Assembly (NCBI GenBank): GCA_030147905.1
Contig: JASBUM010000287.1
Span: 1-6,630, forward strand
Source: Acidimangrovimonas sp.
Lineage (GTDB): Bacteria; Pseudomonadota; Alphaproteobacteria; Rhodobacterales; Rhodobacteraceae
Direction of reading: 5' to 3'
Length of the DNA stretch: 6,630 nucleotides
Shown in pieces: positions 292 through 6,630 of this stretch. Position numbers and translations under genes: made by a program. The notes under the pieces are model-generated. The model did no database searches. It had not been told where the DNA came from and saw only the letters and a list, made by a program, of their open reading frames with translations. Each line of letters starts with the position of its first letter. Position 1 is the first letter of the stretch.

Positions 292-1341
292 ATGGCCGAC
301 TGGCTGAGCGCGCTCGGCGCGATCGAGGAACTCGAGGACGGCAAATTCGACGCCGCGCTGGTGGCCGAGATGGAGGCCGCCGCCGTCCGGCGTGCGTTGC
401 CGCCCGTACGTTTCTCGACGCCGACGTTCAAGGAATACAACACCTCTGACGTGAAGGGCTGCGGCAAGAATTCCTTCCCCGCCTTCTCGATCACCGCGGG
501 CGGCTGCGCGTTGGATTGCGACCATTGCCAGGCCAAGATCCTCGAGCCGATGATCCCGGCGACGAAGCCCGAGATGCTCGACCAGAAGGTCCGCGACCTG
601 ATCGTGCTGCAAGGATTGCAGGGGTTCCTTCTGTCGGGCGGGTCGAACCGACGCAACGAGATCCGCTATGAACGTTTCTATCCGGTGATCGAGGGGCTCA
701 AGCGCGACTTTCCCCATCTCAAGATCGCGATCCACACCGCCCTGACCGACGAAGCCGGCGCCCGGCGGATGGAGGCGGCCGGCGTCGATACAGCGATGAT
801 GGATGTGATCGGCGCGCGGGAAACCATCGAACAGGTCTATCACCTCGATCGTCCGGTCGAGGATTTCGAGGCCACGCTGGCGGCCCTGACCGCGACCAAG
901 ATGGAGGTGACGCCGCATATCGTCGTCGGGCTGCATTACGGCCGGATTCTGGGCGAGGCCAATGCGCTCGACATCGTGTCGCGTCACGGCGTCCACGCGC
1001 TGGTTCTGGTGGTGATCATGCCGTTCTACGCCCGCCCCGGCACGTTCGTCACGCCCGAGACCGCCGATGTCGGCCGGATCTTCCTTGAGGCGCGGCGGCG
1101 TCTGCCCGACAAACAGGTCCTGCTGGGCTGCGCCCGGCCGGCGGGGATGCACAAGCGCGTGACCGACGCCTATGCGGTGATGGCGGGGCTCGACGGGATC
1201 GCCTTTCCAGCCGATGGCGCGGTGGCGGTCGCGCGGGCGACCGGTCGCGACTGGCATCAGGAACATGCCTGCTGCTCGATCAAGATCGGCGGCGATCTGG
1301 GGCGCGCGACGGGTGGCCAGCGCGCCACTTGCGCGGCATGA
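292..1341 (+). CDS. Radical SAM lipoyl synthase subunit of the LipS1/LipS2 pair (shorter member; tentatively LipS1 by gene order)
   Basis: This 349-residue radical SAM protein has similarity to biotin synthase-like proteins. The cluster motif is CX3CX2C at Cys72, Cys76 and Cys79 (GGCALDCDHC), preceded by the FSITAGG strand, and the SAM-binding LLSGGSN follows at 113-119. Further cysteines are Cys57 (KGCGKN), Cys280 (LLGCARP), Cys327-Cys328 (HACCS) and Cys347; some are candidates for an auxiliary Fe-S cluster. In the non-classical pathway LipS1 and LipS2 act together in the cytoplasm as lipoyl synthase, each supplying sulfur to the octanoyl chain on a carrier protein. The assignment rests on the motif pattern and above all on the neighbours: a LipT-like flavoprotein, a second radical SAM protein and an LplA/LplB-type ligase. 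The start is the ATG after a strong GGAGG; the stop overlaps the next start as ATGA. Which LipS number it carries is uncertain. A biotin-synthase-like enzyme on another substrate is the main alternative. Confidence 0.82.
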   Translation: MADWLSALGAIEELEDGKFDAALVAEMEAAAVRRALPPVRFSTPTFKEYNTSDVKGCGKNSFPAFSITAGGCALDCDHCQAKILEPMIPATKPEMLDQKVRDLIVLQGLQGFLLSGGSNRRNEIRYERFYPVIEGLKRDFPHLKIAIHTALTDEAGARRMEAAGVDTAMMDVIGARETIEQVYHLDRPVEDFEATLAALTATKMEVTPHIVVGLHYGRILGEANALDIVSRHGVHALVLVVIMPFYARPGTFVTPETADVGRIFLEARRRLPDKQVLLGCARPAGMHKRVTDAYAVMAGLDGIAFPADGAVAVARATGRDWHQEHACCSIKIGGDLGRATGGQRATCAA

Positions 1342-2486
1342 GCGCGCCCCGCGATATCGACGTGCTGGTGGTCGGGCTCGGCCCGGCCGGCGCGGCGGCG
1401 GCCGAAGCGGCGGCGCGCGCCGGTCTGCGCGTGATCGCGGCCGAGCGCAACGCCGAGCCCGGCTTGCCGGTCCAATGCGCCGAATTCGTGCCGATGATGA
1501 TCGGCGGCGACGTGCCGGAACTGGCTGCCAGCAGCGTGCAGACCATCGAGGCGATGGAAACCTATGTCGGCGCCGACCCGGCCGATCCGACCCCCGATTT
1601 TCGCGGTCATATGATCGACCGCGCGCGTTTCGACCAGGCGCTGATCGCCCGCGCGCAAGGGGCGGGTGCCGATTGCCGCTTCGGCCTGCCGCTGCGCACG
1701 GTTGATGCCGACGGAGGCGCGATTCTGGGCGCCGGCGGCACGCCCGAATTGCACATCAGGCCGCGGCTGATCATCGGCGCCGACGGGCCGCGCTCGGTCG
1801 TGGCGCGGGCCGCCGGCTGCCCCAATCGCGCGATGGTCGAGACCCGGCAGATCACCGTCGATCTCCTGCGCCCGCATCGCGCCACCGATATCTTCCTGCG
1901 GCCCGAGATCGCCGGCGGCTACGCCTGGCTGTTCCCGCGCGGGGCCATGGCCAATCTCGGCCTCGGTCTGGTGCCGGAGCTGAAAAGCCGGCTCAAGCCC
2001 CTGCTCGACGCCCTGCATGGCGAATTGCAGACGGCCGGACGGCTTGGCGCGCGGATCCATCGCACCACCGGCGGGTTGATCCCGGTCGGCGGGATCACGC
2101 GGCTGGCCACCCGCATCGGCGCGCTGCCGGTGCTTCTGGCGGGCGATGCCGCTGGGCTCACCAATCCGATCACCGGCGCCGGGATCAGTGCCGCCGTGGT
2201 CTCGGGACGCGAGGCCGGCGCGGCGGCGGGCGAGATCCTCGCCGGGCGGGCCGCGGCGGCCGAAGATTACGCCGAGGAGATCGCCGATGTCTTCGGCCCC
2301 TCGATCACGCTGGCCCTGCGCCGGCGCGCGGCATTGATGGCCGGATATCACGGCGAATCCCGCCCCGACGCGCAGACCCTGCGCAGCGGCTGGATCGCCT
2401 ACGCCGAATATTGGAACAGGACCGAAGCCGACGGGGCGATCACGCCACGCGGCGCGAAGACAGCGGAGGCGAAGGAAACGGCATGA
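1338..2486 (+). CDS. lipT: LipT-like FAD-dependent oxidoreductase (geranylgeranyl reductase family)
   Basis: This 382-residue flavoprotein has the layout of the geranylgeranyl reductase/aromatic monooxygenase fold. It has an N-terminal Rossmann motif GLGPAGAAAA (13-22) with the ribose-binding Glu36 ending the second strand, a GADGPRS motif (147-153), and the FAD-closing LLAGDAAGLTNPITGAG (266-282). No signal peptide or membrane segment is visible, so it should be cytoplasmic. Proteins of this kind, called LipT, are encoded with lipS1, lipS2 and slpl(AB) in non-classical lipoate clusters; their reaction is not established to my knowledge. Delivering electrons to the radical SAM partners, or redox work on the thiolated product, would fit but is inference. 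It overlaps the upstream gene by 4 bases (ATGA) and the downstream gene in the same way, which implies translational coupling and a tight functional link. A TTG at 1329 in frame is a less likely start. On sequence alone it could be called simply a geranylgeranyl-reductase-like protein; the name depends on context. Confidence 0.8.
   Translation: MSAPRDIDVLVVGLGPAGAAAAEAAARAGLRVIAAERNAEPGLPVQCAEFVPMMIGGDVPELAASSVQTIEAMETYVGADPADPTPDFRGHMIDRARFDQALIARAQGAGADCRFGLPLRTVDADGGAILGAGGTPELHIRPRLIIGADGPRSVVARAAGCPNRAMVETRQITVDLLRPHRATDIFLRPEIAGGYAWLFPRGAMANLGLGLVPELKSRLKPLLDALHGELQTAGRLGARIHRTTGGLIPVGGITRLATRIGALPVLLAGDAAGLTNPITGAGISAAVVSGREAGAAAGEILAGRAAAAEDYAEEIADVFGPSITLALRRRAALMAGYHGESRPDAQTLRSGWIAYAEYWNRTEADGAITPRGAKTAEAKETA
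2465..2476 (+). promoter_or_regulatory. Ribosome binding site for the second radical SAM gene, inside the 3' end of lipT
   Basis: GGAGG at 2465-2469 and AAGGA at 2472-2476 precede the ATG at 2483; the second lies six bases away. The frame is open further upstream, but this site and the ATGA overlap (2483-2486) favour the ATG at 2483. Confidence 0.6.
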
Positions 2487-3775
2487 CCTGCTTGAAGCCG
2501 GAAAACGCGATGCCGGGTGCAAAGGGCGCCGGCGGGCTCGATTACAACCCGTTCGAGATCATGGCGCCGCGCGCACCCGGCCAGGTCCCGCGCGAGATGA
2601 AGAACGGCCGCCCGGTCAAGGAGGCCAATCTGACGCCCGAGGGCCTTTACCGCCCCGATTACCGGGTGATGACGCCGCATATGCGCTCGCCCGAATATGT
2701 GCAGATGTCGACCGCCGCGGCGATCACGCTGGGCCTGGTCGAGGGGCAGATGCACCGCTGTTCCTGCACCCGCTGCCTGAACCTGCTGCTGACCTATCCC
2801 GAAGGCTGCCGCGCCAATTGCGCCTATTGCGGCCTGGCCCGCCACCGCGAAGCGGAACGCAATTACGCCGATCGCAATTTCATCCGCGTCGATTGGCCGG
2901 CGGTGTCCATGGATGAAATCGTCGCGCGGATCGCGGCGGATGTCGAGAACACGCCGTTCCATCGCATGTGCATCTCGATGATCACCCATCCGAATTCGGA
3001 CGAGGATACGGTGACGGTGCTGAAGAAATGGGTAGACAAGATCGACCCCGACGCGATCCCGATCTCGATCCTGTCCAACCCGACGACGATGACCCGCCAG
3101 GACGTCCAGGTGCTGCACGAACTGGGTTCCGACATCTTCACCGTCGCGCTCGACGCCGCGACGCCCGAATTGTTCGACCGCACCCGCGGCAAGGGCGTGC
3201 AATCGCCCCATACATGGAAGAAATACTGGGAGATCATGCTTGAGGCGCGGGACATTTTCGGACCGCAAAAATTCGGCGCTCATATCATCGTCGGCATGGG
3301 CGAGACCGAATACGAGGTGATGAAAGTGGTCCAGGATCTCGTCGATCTGGGCGGCCACAGCCATATGTTCTGCTTCTTCCCGGAGAAGGGCAGCTTGATG
3401 GACCATCTCCCCGCCACCCCGCGCGACCAGTGGCGTCGGGTGCAATTGGCGCGCTATCTGGTCGATTACTGCGGCGTGCGGATCGATCAGATGGCATTCG
3501 ACGACAAGGGCCGGATTTCCGATTTCGGCCTGCCCGAATCCGAGCTTTCGGCGATCATCGACGCGGGCATCGCCTTTCGCACCTCGGGCTGCCCGGGCAA
3601 GTTCGCCGAGGATATCTCGGCCTGCGACCGGCCCTATGGCGACAGCCCGCCCTCGAATATCGCCAGCTACCCTTTCGCGCTGAAGGACGTGGATATCCGC
3701 AAGGTTCGCAGCCAGCTTGGCATGGACCGCCCCGGCGAAAGCTATACGCCGGGCGAGGAATTCGAGGATTTGTAG
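2483..3775 (+). CDS. Radical SAM lipoyl synthase subunit of the LipS1/LipS2 pair (longer member; tentatively LipS2 by gene order)
   Basis: This 430-residue radical SAM protein resembles biotin synthase-related proteins. The radical SAM motif is CX3CX2C at Cys109, Cys113 and Cys116 (EGCRANCAYCGLARHRE). Just before it is a second group, CSCTRC, with Cys93, Cys95 and Cys98. Near the C-terminus are Cys370 (TSGCPG) and Cys381 in CDRPYGDSPPSN. The extra cysteines could hold an auxiliary Fe-S cluster that is consumed as sulfur donor, as is known for LipA, but the spacing is not the CX4CX5C of LipA and no RSSY serine motif is present. With the 349-residue protein encoded two genes upstream it should form the two-part lipoyl synthase that puts sulfur on C6 and C8 of protein-bound octanoate; I do not assign which carbon. 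The start overlaps the lipT stop as ATGA and has a good ribosome binding site. It ends at TAG, 42 bp before the ligase gene. The family call is strong; the LipS number is uncertain. Confidence 0.84.
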   Translation: MTCLKPENAMPGAKGAGGLDYNPFEIMAPRAPGQVPREMKNGRPVKEANLTPEGLYRPDYRVMTPHMRSPEYVQMSTAAAITLGLVEGQMHRCSCTRCLNLLLTYPEGCRANCAYCGLARHREAERNYADRNFIRVDWPAVSMDEIVARIAADVENTPFHRMCISMITHPNSDEDTVTVLKKWVDKIDPDAIPISILSNPTTMTRQDVQVLHELGSDIFTVALDAATPELFDRTRGKGVQSPHTWKKYWEIMLEARDIFGPQKFGAHIIVGMGETEYEVMKVVQDLVDLGGHSHMFCFFPEKGSLMDHLPATPRDQWRRVQLARYLVDYCGVRIDQMAFDDKGRISDFGLPESELSAIIDAGIAFRTSGCPGKFAEDISACDRPYGDSPPSNIASYPFALKDVDIRKVRSQLGMDRPGESYTPGEEFEDL

Positions 3776-3800
3776 ACCAGCCGTGCGTGTAACGAGTCCC

Positions 3801-3812
3801 AGGGAGAAAGGA
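3801..3812 (+). promoter_or_regulatory. Ribosome binding site for the lipoate ligase gene
   Basis: AGGGAG (3801-3806) followed by AAAGGA (3807-3812) lies five bases before the ATG at 3818. It fills much of the only real gap in the operon (42 bp), where no hairpin terminator is visible, so read-through transcription from the upstream genes is likely. Confidence 0.6.
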
Positions 3813-3817
3813 CGAAG

Positions 3818-4927
3818 ATGGCCAAACCCTTCCGCGTGATCGACACCGGGCTGCGTCCCTGTCGCGAACAGATCGCCTTCGACCAGGCGTTGATCGATTG
3901 CCACAAGGCCGGGCATATCCCCGACACATTGCGGTTCCTGACCTTTCCGCCCTCGGTGCTGGTCGGCCGGCATCAGGCGATCGGGCAGGAATTGAACCTG
4001 CCCGCCTGCCGCACGGCCGGCGTCGGCATCGGCCGGCGCGTCACCGGTGGCGGCGCGCTTTATCTCGATCAGGGGCAATTCGGCTGGGAGCTGGTTTTTC
4101 ACCGCGATACTTTGGGGCTCGGCAACCTGGGCGAGGTCGCCCGCGCCTTGTGCGAGGCCGCCGCGGCCGGGCTGTCGCGGCTGGGTGTGGCGGTGAAATA
4201 CCGCCCGCGCAACGATCTTGAAGTCGAGGGACGCAAGATCGGCGGCACCGGCGGTTTCTTCGACGGCGACACGATCTTCTATCAGGGCACCACCCTGGTG
4301 GCGATGGATGGGGCGAAGATGGCCTCGCTACTGAATATCCCGGCGGCGAAACTGGCCAAGCGCGGCCAGACCAGCGGCGCCCAGCGCATCGTCACCCTGA
4401 CCGAATTGTTCGACGGCAAGCCGCCGCCCGAGGCCGAGGTGAAACAGGCGCTGATCGAAGGCTTCGCCGAACGTCTCGGCATCGCGCCGGCCTGGGGCGA
4501 AATCACCGCCGCCGAGGAAAGTGCCGCGCGGCTGATCCATGACGACGAGATCGGCCAGGACGCTTTCGTCTACGAGATCGACGACCCGACCGGCGCCGAT
4601 GTCCATTCGGGCAGCCATACCGGTCACGGCGGCACCATCGCCGCGCATCTGCGTCTTGAGGGCCCGCGGCAAAACCGCATCCGCGAAATCCTGATCACCG
4701 GCGATTTCTTCGTCACCCCGCCAGCGACGATCATGAATCTCGAAGCGGCCCTGCGCGGGGTGGAAATCGAGGCGCTGCAAGCCGCCGTCACCGAATTTTT
4801 CGAAACCGCCCGGGTCGGGCTTCTGACCGCCGCGCCGGCGGATTTCGTCCAGGCCATCGAAAATGCGATCAAGTCCGGGCCCGGGGTCTCGGCCAGTCCG
4901 GAGCAGCAGGCGGCGCCCGCCGATTGA
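3818..4927 (+). CDS. slpl(AB): sLpl(AB)-type lipoate/octanoate:protein ligase with fused LplA-like and LplB-like domains
   Basis: This 369-residue cytoplasmic ligase activates lipoate or octanoate with ATP and transfers it to a lysine on a carrier protein. The LplA-like catalytic domain fills about residues 1-225. RRVTGGGALY (73-82) is the lipoate-binding loop, RNDLEV (131-136) leads to the substrate-binding Lys140 in GRKIGGTGG, and the early RPCREQIAFDQAL region is typical of the fold. From about 240 to 345 comes an LplB-like accessory domain, marked by HLRLEGPRQNRI and ITGDFFVTPP (294-302). The last 19 or so residues form a Gly/Ala/Pro-rich tail that looks disordered. In the classical pathway this step is split between LplA or LipB and LipA; here the ligase would supply the octanoylated protein to the two radical SAM subunits encoded upstream. 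The length fits an LplA plus LplB fusion. A general salvage LplA is the alternative, but the gene neighbours make the sLpl(AB) reading preferable. Confidence 0.87.
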   Translation: MAKPFRVIDTGLRPCREQIAFDQALIDCHKAGHIPDTLRFLTFPPSVLVGRHQAIGQELNLPACRTAGVGIGRRVTGGGALYLDQGQFGWELVFHRDTLGLGNLGEVARALCEAAAAGLSRLGVAVKYRPRNDLEVEGRKIGGTGGFFDGDTIFYQGTTLVAMDGAKMASLLNIPAAKLAKRGQTSGAQRIVTLTELFDGKPPPEAEVKQALIEGFAERLGIAPAWGEITAAEESAARLIHDDEIGQDAFVYEIDDPTGADVHSGSHTGHGGTIAAHLRLEGPRQNRIREILITGDFFVTPPATIMNLEAALRGVEIEALQAAVTEFFETARVGLLTAAPADFVQAIENAIKSGPGVSASPEQQAAPAD

Positions 4928-4960: not shown

Positions 4961-5018
4961 CCCGGCGGGTTCCGTCCCGGCTGGTTCCGTCAGCGTCCCC
5001 GGCTGGTTCCGTCAGCGT
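4961..5018. repeat. Short tandem repeat spanning the 3' end of lolD
   Basis: A 21-base unit beginning CCCGGCTGGTTCC and ending GTCAGCGT is present at 4976-4996 and, identical, at 4998-5018, a period of 22. A shortened relative (CCCGGCGGGTTCCGT, 4961-4975) stands directly before the first copy. The last copy overlaps the lolD gene: its end encodes the final residue and the TGA stop on the - strand, so each full copy carries the same in-line stop. It looks like slippage duplication at a gene end. Confidence 0.75.
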
Positions 5019-5728
5019 GTGCTCACCATCGCCGCCGTCAAGCGGCCGTCGACCAGCTGCACCGCACGGTCCATCCGCGCCGCAAGCGCCAGGTTGTGGG
5101 TCGCGATCAGGGCCGCCAGCCCGGTTTCGCGCACCAGATCGACCAGCGTCGCGAAGACCTGATCCGACGTGCCGGGATCGAGATTGCCGGTGGGCTCATC
5201 CGCCAACAGCAATTTCGGCCGGTTGGCCATCGCCCGGCAGAAGGCCACCCGCTGCTGCTCGCCGCCCGACAGCGCGCCGGGGCGATGATCGGCCCGCGCG
5301 CGAAGTCCCACGCGTTCGAGCAGCCCGCGGGCACGCGTCTCGGCCTCGGCCCGTGTCGCACCGTCGGCAAGCTGCGGCAGCACGATGTTCTCAAGTGCCG
5401 TGAATTCCGGCAGCAGATGATGGAACTGATAGATGAAGCCCACGTCACCGCGCCGCGCCGCGGTGCGTCGCCGATCGGGCAGCCGCGTCATCTCGGCGCC
5501 GCCGATGGTAACCTTGCCCTCATCGGGCGTGTCCAGCAGCCCGGCGATGTGCAGCAGCGTCGATTTTCCCGCCCCCGAAGGCGCGACCAGCGCCACCATT
5601 TCGCCGCGTCCGACATCGAGATCGACACCGCGCAGCACCGAAACCTCGCCGGGCTTCCCGCGCAGATAGGCTTTCTCGATCCCGCTCAGCCGCAGAACCG
5701 GCGCCGCCACGCCCTCCGCCTCACTCAT
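5012..5728 (-). CDS. lolD: LolD, ATP-binding subunit of the lipoprotein-releasing ABC transporter
   Basis: This 238-residue ABC ATPase energises release of outer-membrane lipoproteins from the inner membrane to the LolA chaperone. All nucleotide-binding motifs are present: Walker [10 protein letters not shown] (49-57, with Ala where most ABC proteins have Gly), the Q-loop Gln101 in [10 protein letters not shown], the signature LSGGEQQR (153-160), Walker [13 protein letters not shown] (173-184, catalytic Glu178) and the H-loop His211 in ATHN. The [11 protein letters not shown] region after the Q-loop is typical of LolD among related MacB/FtsE-type ATPases. The start ATG overlaps the end of lolC by 8 bases (ATGAGTGA), with GGAGG at 5738-5742 nine bases ahead, so the two are translated as a pair. 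The length is normal for the family. The gene is convergent with the lipoate operon and ends within a short tandem repeat. Confidence 0.95.
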
Positions 5729-6630
5729 AGCGCAGTGCCTCCACCGGATTCATCCGTGCGGCGCGGCGCGCGGGAAAGATGGTGACCACGAACGAAAGCC
5801 CGAGGCTGAGCAGAACCGCCTTGATCACGTCGGCCGGCACCAGTTTCGCGGGCAGCGTATAGATGCCGCGTATGGCCGGGTCCCAGACCCCGCCCCCGGC
5901 CCAGTAATTCACGAAAGAGAAGATCGGGTCGATATAGATCGCGAACAGCGACCCCAGGATCACGCCCAGCAGGGTGCCGGCGATGCCGATAGAGGCGCCA
6001 CAGATGAAGAAGATGCGCAGGATCGACCCCTCGGTCAGCCCCATGGTGCGCAGGATGCCGATGTCGCGGCCCTTGTTCTTGACCAGCATGATCAGCCCCG
6101 AGACGATGTTCATCGAGGCGATCAGGACCAGGATCGAAAGGATCACGAACATCACGTTGTCCTCGACCGTCAGCGCCCGCAGAAAGCTGCCGGCGCTGTC
6201 CTTCCAGCTCCACAGCACGGCGTTGGGGCCGGACGCCTTCTGGATCGCAGGTTCGATCCGCGCGACACGCTCGGGATCGCGCGTCATCACCTCGATCTGG
6301 TCGGCGCGCCCCTCGAGGTTGAAATAGCTCTGCGCCTCCTTGAACGGCATGTAGATCCGCGTCTGGTCGATGTCGTAGCGCCCGGCGCTGAAGATGTAGA
6401 CAACCTTGTATTCCTTCACCCTCGGACTGGTGCCGAATGCGGTCTTCACCCCGTCGGGCGAGATCAGGCGGATGTAGTCCCCCACCGCAAGGCCAAGCGT
6501 CCGCGCAACCCCGGTGCCGATCGCCACCCCCTGGTCGTAATTGTCGATGTTGCCCAGCGCCTTGTCCGAATGCGCGACCCGCGGCACGTTCTTCAGATCG
6601 GCCAGCGCCAGTCCGAAGATCTGCACCCCG
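5721..6630 (-). CDS. lolC: LolC, permease subunit of the lipoprotein-releasing transporter (C-terminal part; N-terminus outside window)
   Basis: About 302 residues of an FtsX/MacB-fold permease are visible; the frame continues through the right edge, and full LolC-type proteins have roughly 400-430 residues, so the first membrane helix and part of the periplasmic domain are missing. Counting from the codon at 6626, residues 1-155 belong to the periplasmic domain. Membrane segments follow at about 157-182 ([20 protein letters not shown]), 202-232 and 265-285. Between the first two lies the cytoplasmic coupling stretch [18 protein letters not shown], which should contact LolD, and the protein ends with the family's [17 protein letters not shown] motif. 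The GTG at 6626 is internal, not a start. The stop TGA lies inside the lolD start region. Only one permease gene directly adjoins lolD, as in many alphaproteobacteria; whether it acts as LolC with a separate LolE or as a single LolF-like homodimer cannot be decided here. Confidence 0.92.

Follow-up and report, generated by a model that had tools for sequence, protein, structure and literature searches.

Does a cluster of lipoate assembly genes in an alphaproteobacterium replace the classical enzymes LipA and LipB, or does it serve one carrier protein beside them, and why is it headed by a gene of the histone deacetylase (HDAC) family? These questions are raised by a 6,630-base stretch from Acidimangrovimonas sp. 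(assembly GCA_030147905.1, contig JASBUM010000287.1), which is the entire contig and is called the window below. Four adjacent genes on its forward strand, at positions 292 to 4927, encode the radical S-adenosylmethionine (SAM) proteins LipS1 and LipS2, the flavoprotein LipT, and the ligase sLpl(AB). An earlier note, made from the DNA letters alone, had reported these genes, and a check of the open reading frames bore out their coordinates and strand. This four-gene core is a published type of lipoate pathway, one used in sulfur oxidation, found here in one more organism; what is new is the conserved AcuC-family (HDAC-family) gene at the head of the operon. We read the locus as a dedicated operon for the lipoate of the carrier protein LbpA, with a functionally linked AcuC-family partner, and we put the probability of this reading at roughly 82%, a figure that does not cover the reaction that the partner catalyzes.

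A conserved AcuC-family gene upstream of lipS1

The earlier note described the operon as complete. All four genes are indeed present, but the conserved AcuC-family gene upstream was overlooked: its 3' end (72 codons and a stop) lies at positions 2 to 220 on the forward strand, 71 bases before the start of lipS1, and its own start is cut off by the start of the contig. Neither Pfam nor NCBIfam gave a match for the 72-amino-acid piece. However, its homologs lie directly upstream of lipS1 in L002 to L006 (L and G numbers are our labels for loci and genomes), and four of four full-length relatives contain the histone-deacetylase domain PF00850 (E = 1e-68 to 1e-70). An NCBIfam scan of three lip-linked HDACs gave no match.

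By similarity to the window's proteins, we found 24 genomes with the arrangement lipS1-(lipT)-lipS2-slpl (7+1+9+6+1). In 20 of them, lipS1 is preceded by an AcuC-family gene of the same orientation, a count that is not a random-sample rate because similarity to the window's proteins defined the set. The two genes are immediately adjacent in 17 genomes; in the other three (G379, G207, and G301; loci L083 to L085), they are separated by one gene, which from its sequence we take to be YeeE/SoxT-like.

The linked genes are also distinct from other members of the family. LipS2 is present in 7 of 394 genomes of one family, and the HDAC of L005, used as a query, matches 181 of 394 genomes at 1e-60 (we equated the two samples from their size and the listed genome handles). 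The seven best matches (52 to 61% identity, 421 to 490 bits) come from exactly the seven LipS2-positive genomes; the eighth has 50% identity and 388 bits. Among the matches listed, at least four of these seven genomes have a second, housekeeping-type copy of AcuC (46 to 49%). A 45-row tree places the 20 linked HDACs together on one side of a branch that has support of 100/99 and appears in 200 of 200 bootstrap trees (L140 was left out of the tree and of the residue counts). The window's piece is nearest to the linked clade, with 59% identity to L097 and L094. All linked proteins except L086 (19 of 20) score higher than L150, the best unlinked protein (38%); L086 scores below it. These comparisons of sequences indicate that the AcuC-family gene belongs to the operon as a distinct ortholog, in one clade.

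The lip-linked proteins look active, as judged from the zinc site of the window's relatives and from a structure model. Six residues (H132, H133, D169, H171, D252, and Y291) are kept in all 20 linked proteins. From the alignment and the assignments in HDLP and HDAC8, we take H132 and H133 to be the histidine pair, D169, H171, and D252 to be the zinc ligands, and Y291 to be the tyrosine. The model of the L005 protein has a mean predicted local distance difference test (pLDDT) score of 94 and a template modeling score of 0.94 to A. aeolicus HDLP. The linked proteins resemble AcuC and A. aeolicus HDLP (PDB 1c3r), as described in the available text of PMC11532494, in their fold, zinc site, and GGxHH and GGGY motifs, the linked clade having GGTHH and GGGY. 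They differ in their linkage to lipS1, in their separate clade, and at 13 positions that are specific to the clade within our alignment.

The four-gene core and its probable acceptor

The products of the core belong to the families that the earlier note had proposed. lipS1 (292 to 1341) encodes a radical SAM sulfur-insertion enzyme of 349 amino acids whose best match is the LipS1 profile (NCBIfam NF053742, E = 2e-54, 184.9 bits), and lipS2 (2483 to 3775) encodes another, of 430 amino acids, whose best match is the LipS2 profile (NF053743, E = 5e-56). At 190.4 bits for LipS2 versus 27.6 for BioB and 19.4 for LipA, the profile scores rule out a biotin-synthase-like identity, the outcome that the earlier note had named as contradicting its proposal. 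lipT (1338 to 2486) encodes a flavin adenine dinucleotide oxidoreductase of 382 amino acids from the geranylgeranyl-reductase superfamily (TIGR02032, GG-red-SF, E = 6e-50, above the cut-off). slpl(AB) (3818 to 4927) encodes a lipoate/octanoate:protein ligase of 369 amino acids, in which the LplA and LplB parts are fused (Pfam PF21948, LplA-B_cat, E = 1e-40): residues 271 to 351 match the LplB profile (NF053749, E = 4e-13, 49.4 bits), and in a sequence search, residues 271 to 347 match the solved small ligase subunit 3r07_C. In a protein search, the ligases of Acidimangrovimonas pyrenivorans and Mesobacterium sp. TK19101 are the nearest named ones (each 80% identical), and on this basis the source is described as Rhodobacteraceae-like. 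The genes overlap by 4 bases at both the lipS1/lipT and the lipT/lipS2 junctions, and a gap of 42 bases separates lipS2 from slpl(AB). Hyphomicrobium denitrificans has these four proteins too, with an identical gene order, lipS1-lipT-lipS2-slpl(AB)-lipX (PMC10332631).

The motifs that the earlier note had pointed to are conserved as well. The CX3CX2C motif is invariant both in LipS1 (C72, C76, and C79; positions 505 to 528; 45 of 45 aligned rows) and in LipS2 (C109, C113, and C116; positions 2807 to 2830; 49 of 49 rows). In the ligase, RRVTGGGA was read in the alignment at residues 73 to 80 (positions 4034 to 4057), and Lys140 (positions 4235 to 4237) is invariant in 48 of 48 ligases. LipS1 also has an auxiliary-cluster pattern (C280, C327, and C328, with H209 and H215) that is invariant in all 45 rows. 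We equated these residues with C230, C276, C277, and H159 of Thermococcus kodakarensis LipS1 by their pattern, with the T. kodakarensis sequence left unaligned. By the available description of the T. kodakarensis enzymes (PMC9585515), both systems have the radical SAM motifs and, in LipS1, an auxiliary cluster with one cysteine and a CC pair; unlike in that system, the ligase here is one fused chain.

LipS2 differs more from its T. kodakarensis counterpart. C163, C370, and C381 are invariant in 49 of 49 rows, but their spacing is not that of C85, C276, and C279: near the C terminus, there is CX10C here versus CX2C in the T. kodakarensis protein, as given in the available text of PMC9585515. 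The clusters of LipS2, as far as the alignment can suggest, may be ligated differently here than in T. kodakarensis. Just before the radical SAM motif there is also a C-x2-C pair (C95 and C98, positions 2765 to 2776), which is invariant in all 49 proteobacterial rows; that part of PMC9585515 reports only C85, C276, and C279 outside the motif. The structure model of LipS2 (mean pLDDT of 62, with most cysteine-bearing stretches below 50) does not place the cysteines, and neither LipS1 nor LipS2 matched a solved structure at E = 0.001. No LipT-specific profile is among the matches listed for the second protein; its assignment as LipT follows from its family and from the position of its gene, which lipS1 and lipS2 flank just as they do in H. 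denitrificans. In three of the 24 genomes (G260, G961, and G253; loci L086, L091, and L102), tblastn found no match to lipT (E = 1e-8) between lipS1 and lipS2, and the electron donor LipT may be dispensable or replaced at these loci.

Which proteins does the operon serve? The earlier note had supposed that this organism can make lipoate without LipA and LipB, and the relatives with the operon argue otherwise. LipA is above the cut-off in 12 of 14 of them (6 of 7 in each of two sets) and LipB in 13 of 14. G002 and G793 have LipB but no LipA over the cut-off, G003 has LipA but no LipB over the cut-off, and no genome lacks both; the missing members may reflect gaps in the assemblies. A close relative of LbpA was found in all 21 genomes searched, with best matches of 54 to 76% identity (100% in the query's own genome). 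The next matches, at 29 to 42% identity, were taken from their similarity to include ordinary glycine-cleavage H proteins. sHdrB2 is present in all seven relatives searched; LbpA and sHdr are features that the relatives share with the known sHdr sulfur oxidizers. LbpA is modified by the published pathway of sLpl(AB), LipS1, and LipS2 but is not a target of the machineries of E. coli and B. subtilis (PMC10332631). Modification of LbpA by this pathway was shown, and co-expression in E. coli gave the mercaptooctanoyl form rather than the finished lipoyl form (PMC10332631). Because the relatives keep LipA and LipB along with LbpA and sHdrB2, we infer that the operon is a route to LbpA beside canonical lipoylation.

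With the chemistry of the ligase and of LipS1 and LipS2 taken from the literature, sLpl(AB) would link octanoate or lipoate, taken up as the free acid, to an LbpA lysine; LipS2 and then LipS1 would insert sulfur at C8 and C6, with LipT probably supplying the electrons. LipA and LipB are most likely also present in this organism for the ordinary lipoyl proteins, which would make the operon a second, dedicated route.

A possible eraser of the LbpA modification

What would an AcuC-family enzyme do in this pathway? Our tentative answer, which we hold at somewhat less than even odds, is that it removes octanoyl or lipoyl groups from LbpA. By hydrolyzing acyl-lysine, it would either clear octanoyl-LbpA that had not received sulfur or remove the lipoyl group and so turn the carrier off. 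We favor this activity because octanoyl-lysine is the product of the neighboring ligase and because an AcuC-type enzyme acts on it: in the available text of PMC11532494, B. subtilis AcuC hydrolyzed an octanoyl-lysine peptide better than the others that it was tested on. The same text relates the foot pocket of zinc deacylases to the length of the acyl chain, and the XGGLHH and (G/A)GGY motifs at the foot pocket of AcuC-type enzymes are said to fit various acyl chains.

If so, a lipoamidase with the zinc deacylase fold would reverse the ligase encoded next door, protein deacylation would be connected with how dissimilatory sulfur oxidation is controlled, and there would be a bearing on the fate of octanoylated, unfinished LbpA. 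The broader proposal, by which sulfur-oxidizing proteobacteria that have this operon use a dedicated, zinc-dependent eraser to proofread LbpA or to switch it off, is likewise possible but falls a little short of an even chance. The lipoamidases CobB, SrtN, and E. faecalis Lpa would be similar in removing lipoyl groups from lysine, if the proposal holds. In the available text of PMC5596343, they are nicotinamide adenine dinucleotide-dependent sirtuins or a Ser-Ser-Lys amidohydrolase rather than zinc hydrolases, and are described as acting on dehydrogenase and glycine-cleavage proteins, not on LbpA. No report that joined AcuC or a deacetylase with sulfur oxidation or a lipoate pathway was among the literature matches listed (subscription papers and supplements were outside the scope), and the terms deacetyl and deacetylase are absent from the text of PMC12423496, PMC11582611, PMC10451225, PMC9585515, PMC6067878, and PMC10332631 (supplements again outside the scope). 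The four-gene core alone would be one more example of a published system; the AcuC-family partner is a candidate eraser for it, and PMC10332631 describes LbpA systems in both E. coli and H. denitrificans.

Several observations count against a dedicated operon with an AcuC-family partner, or against action of that partner on LbpA. Four of the 24 genomes have no AcuC-family gene beside lipS1: G023 and G253 each encode an AcuC at another site, and it falls outside the linked clade; G381 and G218 have no AcuC-family match at 1e-60. Among gamma-type clusters (lipS1-slpl-lipT-lipS2; 25 loci, with lipS1 visible in 22), the gene precedes lipS1 in 0 of 22. In H. denitrificans, it is shdrR that immediately precedes lipS1 (Hden_0682, Hden_0683), where the AcuC-family gene heads the operon here. 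Because the pathway occurs without the gene in all three of these settings, the gene is not essential to it. The piece in the window does not include any catalytic residue, so the zinc site is seen in relatives only. Similarly, LbpA, sHdr, LipA, and LipB are known from relatives, and none was seen in this organism's contig. The LipS1, LipS2, and LplB scores are below the curated cut-offs of 230, 270, and 65 bits, respectively. However, all 10 LipS1 and LipS2 proteins from five other loci (five of each) are also below the cut-offs, and the fetched stretch of four of these loci includes lbpA, which argues that the LipS1 and LipS2 cut-offs miss this branch. As for the substrate, B. subtilis AcuC is inefficient overall, and lipoyl-lysine is not named in PMC11532494. 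The active-site motifs do not identify a substrate either: housekeeping copies of AcuC share them (the same threonine is in 17 of 25 unlinked rows and GGGY in 25 of 25), so they permit but do not prove cleavage of octanoyl or lipoyl groups.

These shared motifs are what would be expected if the linked protein were an ordinary lysine deacetylase, acting on a sulfur-oxidation protein or on the acceptor lysine of LbpA and not on octanoyl or lipoyl groups. B. subtilis AcuC is known, from the available parts of PMC8556138 and PMC11532494, to deacetylate and activate the acetyl-CoA synthetase AcsA. We consider this explanation doubtful, since the housekeeping-type copies in at least four of the seven LipS2-positive genomes mean that a general deacetylase is already present there, and since the linked clade is distinct. 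Another role would be to free octanoate or lipoate from an acylated compound and so feed the ligase, which would suit the Thioalkalivibrio ligase, as it takes free precursors only (PMC10332631). But we found nothing that points to a donor compound, and the enzyme is missing from the four clusters above and from gamma-type clusters with the same type of ligase, which makes this role improbable.

Slightly less probable still is that the AcuC-family gene is a passenger, with a single old linkage inherited along with the operon and no functional link. All of the linked copies are in one clade, and as joint inheritance predicts, the distances among HDACs correlate with the distances among the operon proteins (ligase, r = 0.76; LipS1, r = 0.71; LipS2, r = 0.70), with 0 of 2,000 permutations as high in each case (17 of the 20 linked genomes; G001, G002, and G092 were left out). 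This correlation could be explained by the kinship of the species alone. The pair persists, however, at a mean HDAC identity of 56% while its surroundings change: sHdr genes are downstream in many loci, upstream and divergent in L094 and L095, and upstream and co-oriented in L100, and the YeeE/SoxT-like gene has come between in L083 to L085. The complete retention of the catalytic residues also speaks against a passenger. Finally, the operon could be the organism's only route to lipoate, as in T. kodakarensis, where, by the available text of PMC9585515, LipS1 and LipS2 act as the lipoyl synthase and there is no classical one. Given LipA and LipB in the relatives, this is very improbable.

Neighboring genes and other loci

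Downstream of slpl(AB), where H. denitrificans has lipX, the window instead has a lolDC-like pair on the opposite strand: a LolD-like ATPase (5012 to 5728) and the end of a gene for a LolC/E-like permease (5721 to 6629). In L094 and L095, lipX-dsrE3C-shdr genes are divergent from the HDAC-lip operon; therefore, the organism of the window may have its shdr genes to the left of this contig. In L100, genes for a molybdopterin oxidoreductase and a ferredoxin-type protein separate lbpA from the HDAC-lip operon; in L086, such genes lie upstream on the other strand. We read this pair as SoeAB-like, and it may oxidize sulfite that is formed by sHdr.

Some gamma-type loci have an AcuC gene nearby. It lies 10 to 14 kb downstream in L105, L109, and L120 and near lipS2 in L123, where lipS1 is not visible; all four proteins are outside the linked clade in the tree. 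Downstream of the lip genes, three loci have a second ligase-like gene with 30 to 33% identity to sLpl: L001 (3528 to 4466), where it matches both the LplA and the LplB profiles, and L111 and L119, where it lies at about 13.8 kb. A plasmid origin of the window was considered and rejected: across 72,556 plasmid records, LipS2 had a single weak match (22.5% identity). Lastly, L006 is recorded as Exiguobacterium profundum, and its LipS1, LipS2, and ligase are 74 to 80% identical to those of the window, with a Rhodobacterales-like AcuC; these similarities suggest that it is a mislabeled assembly.

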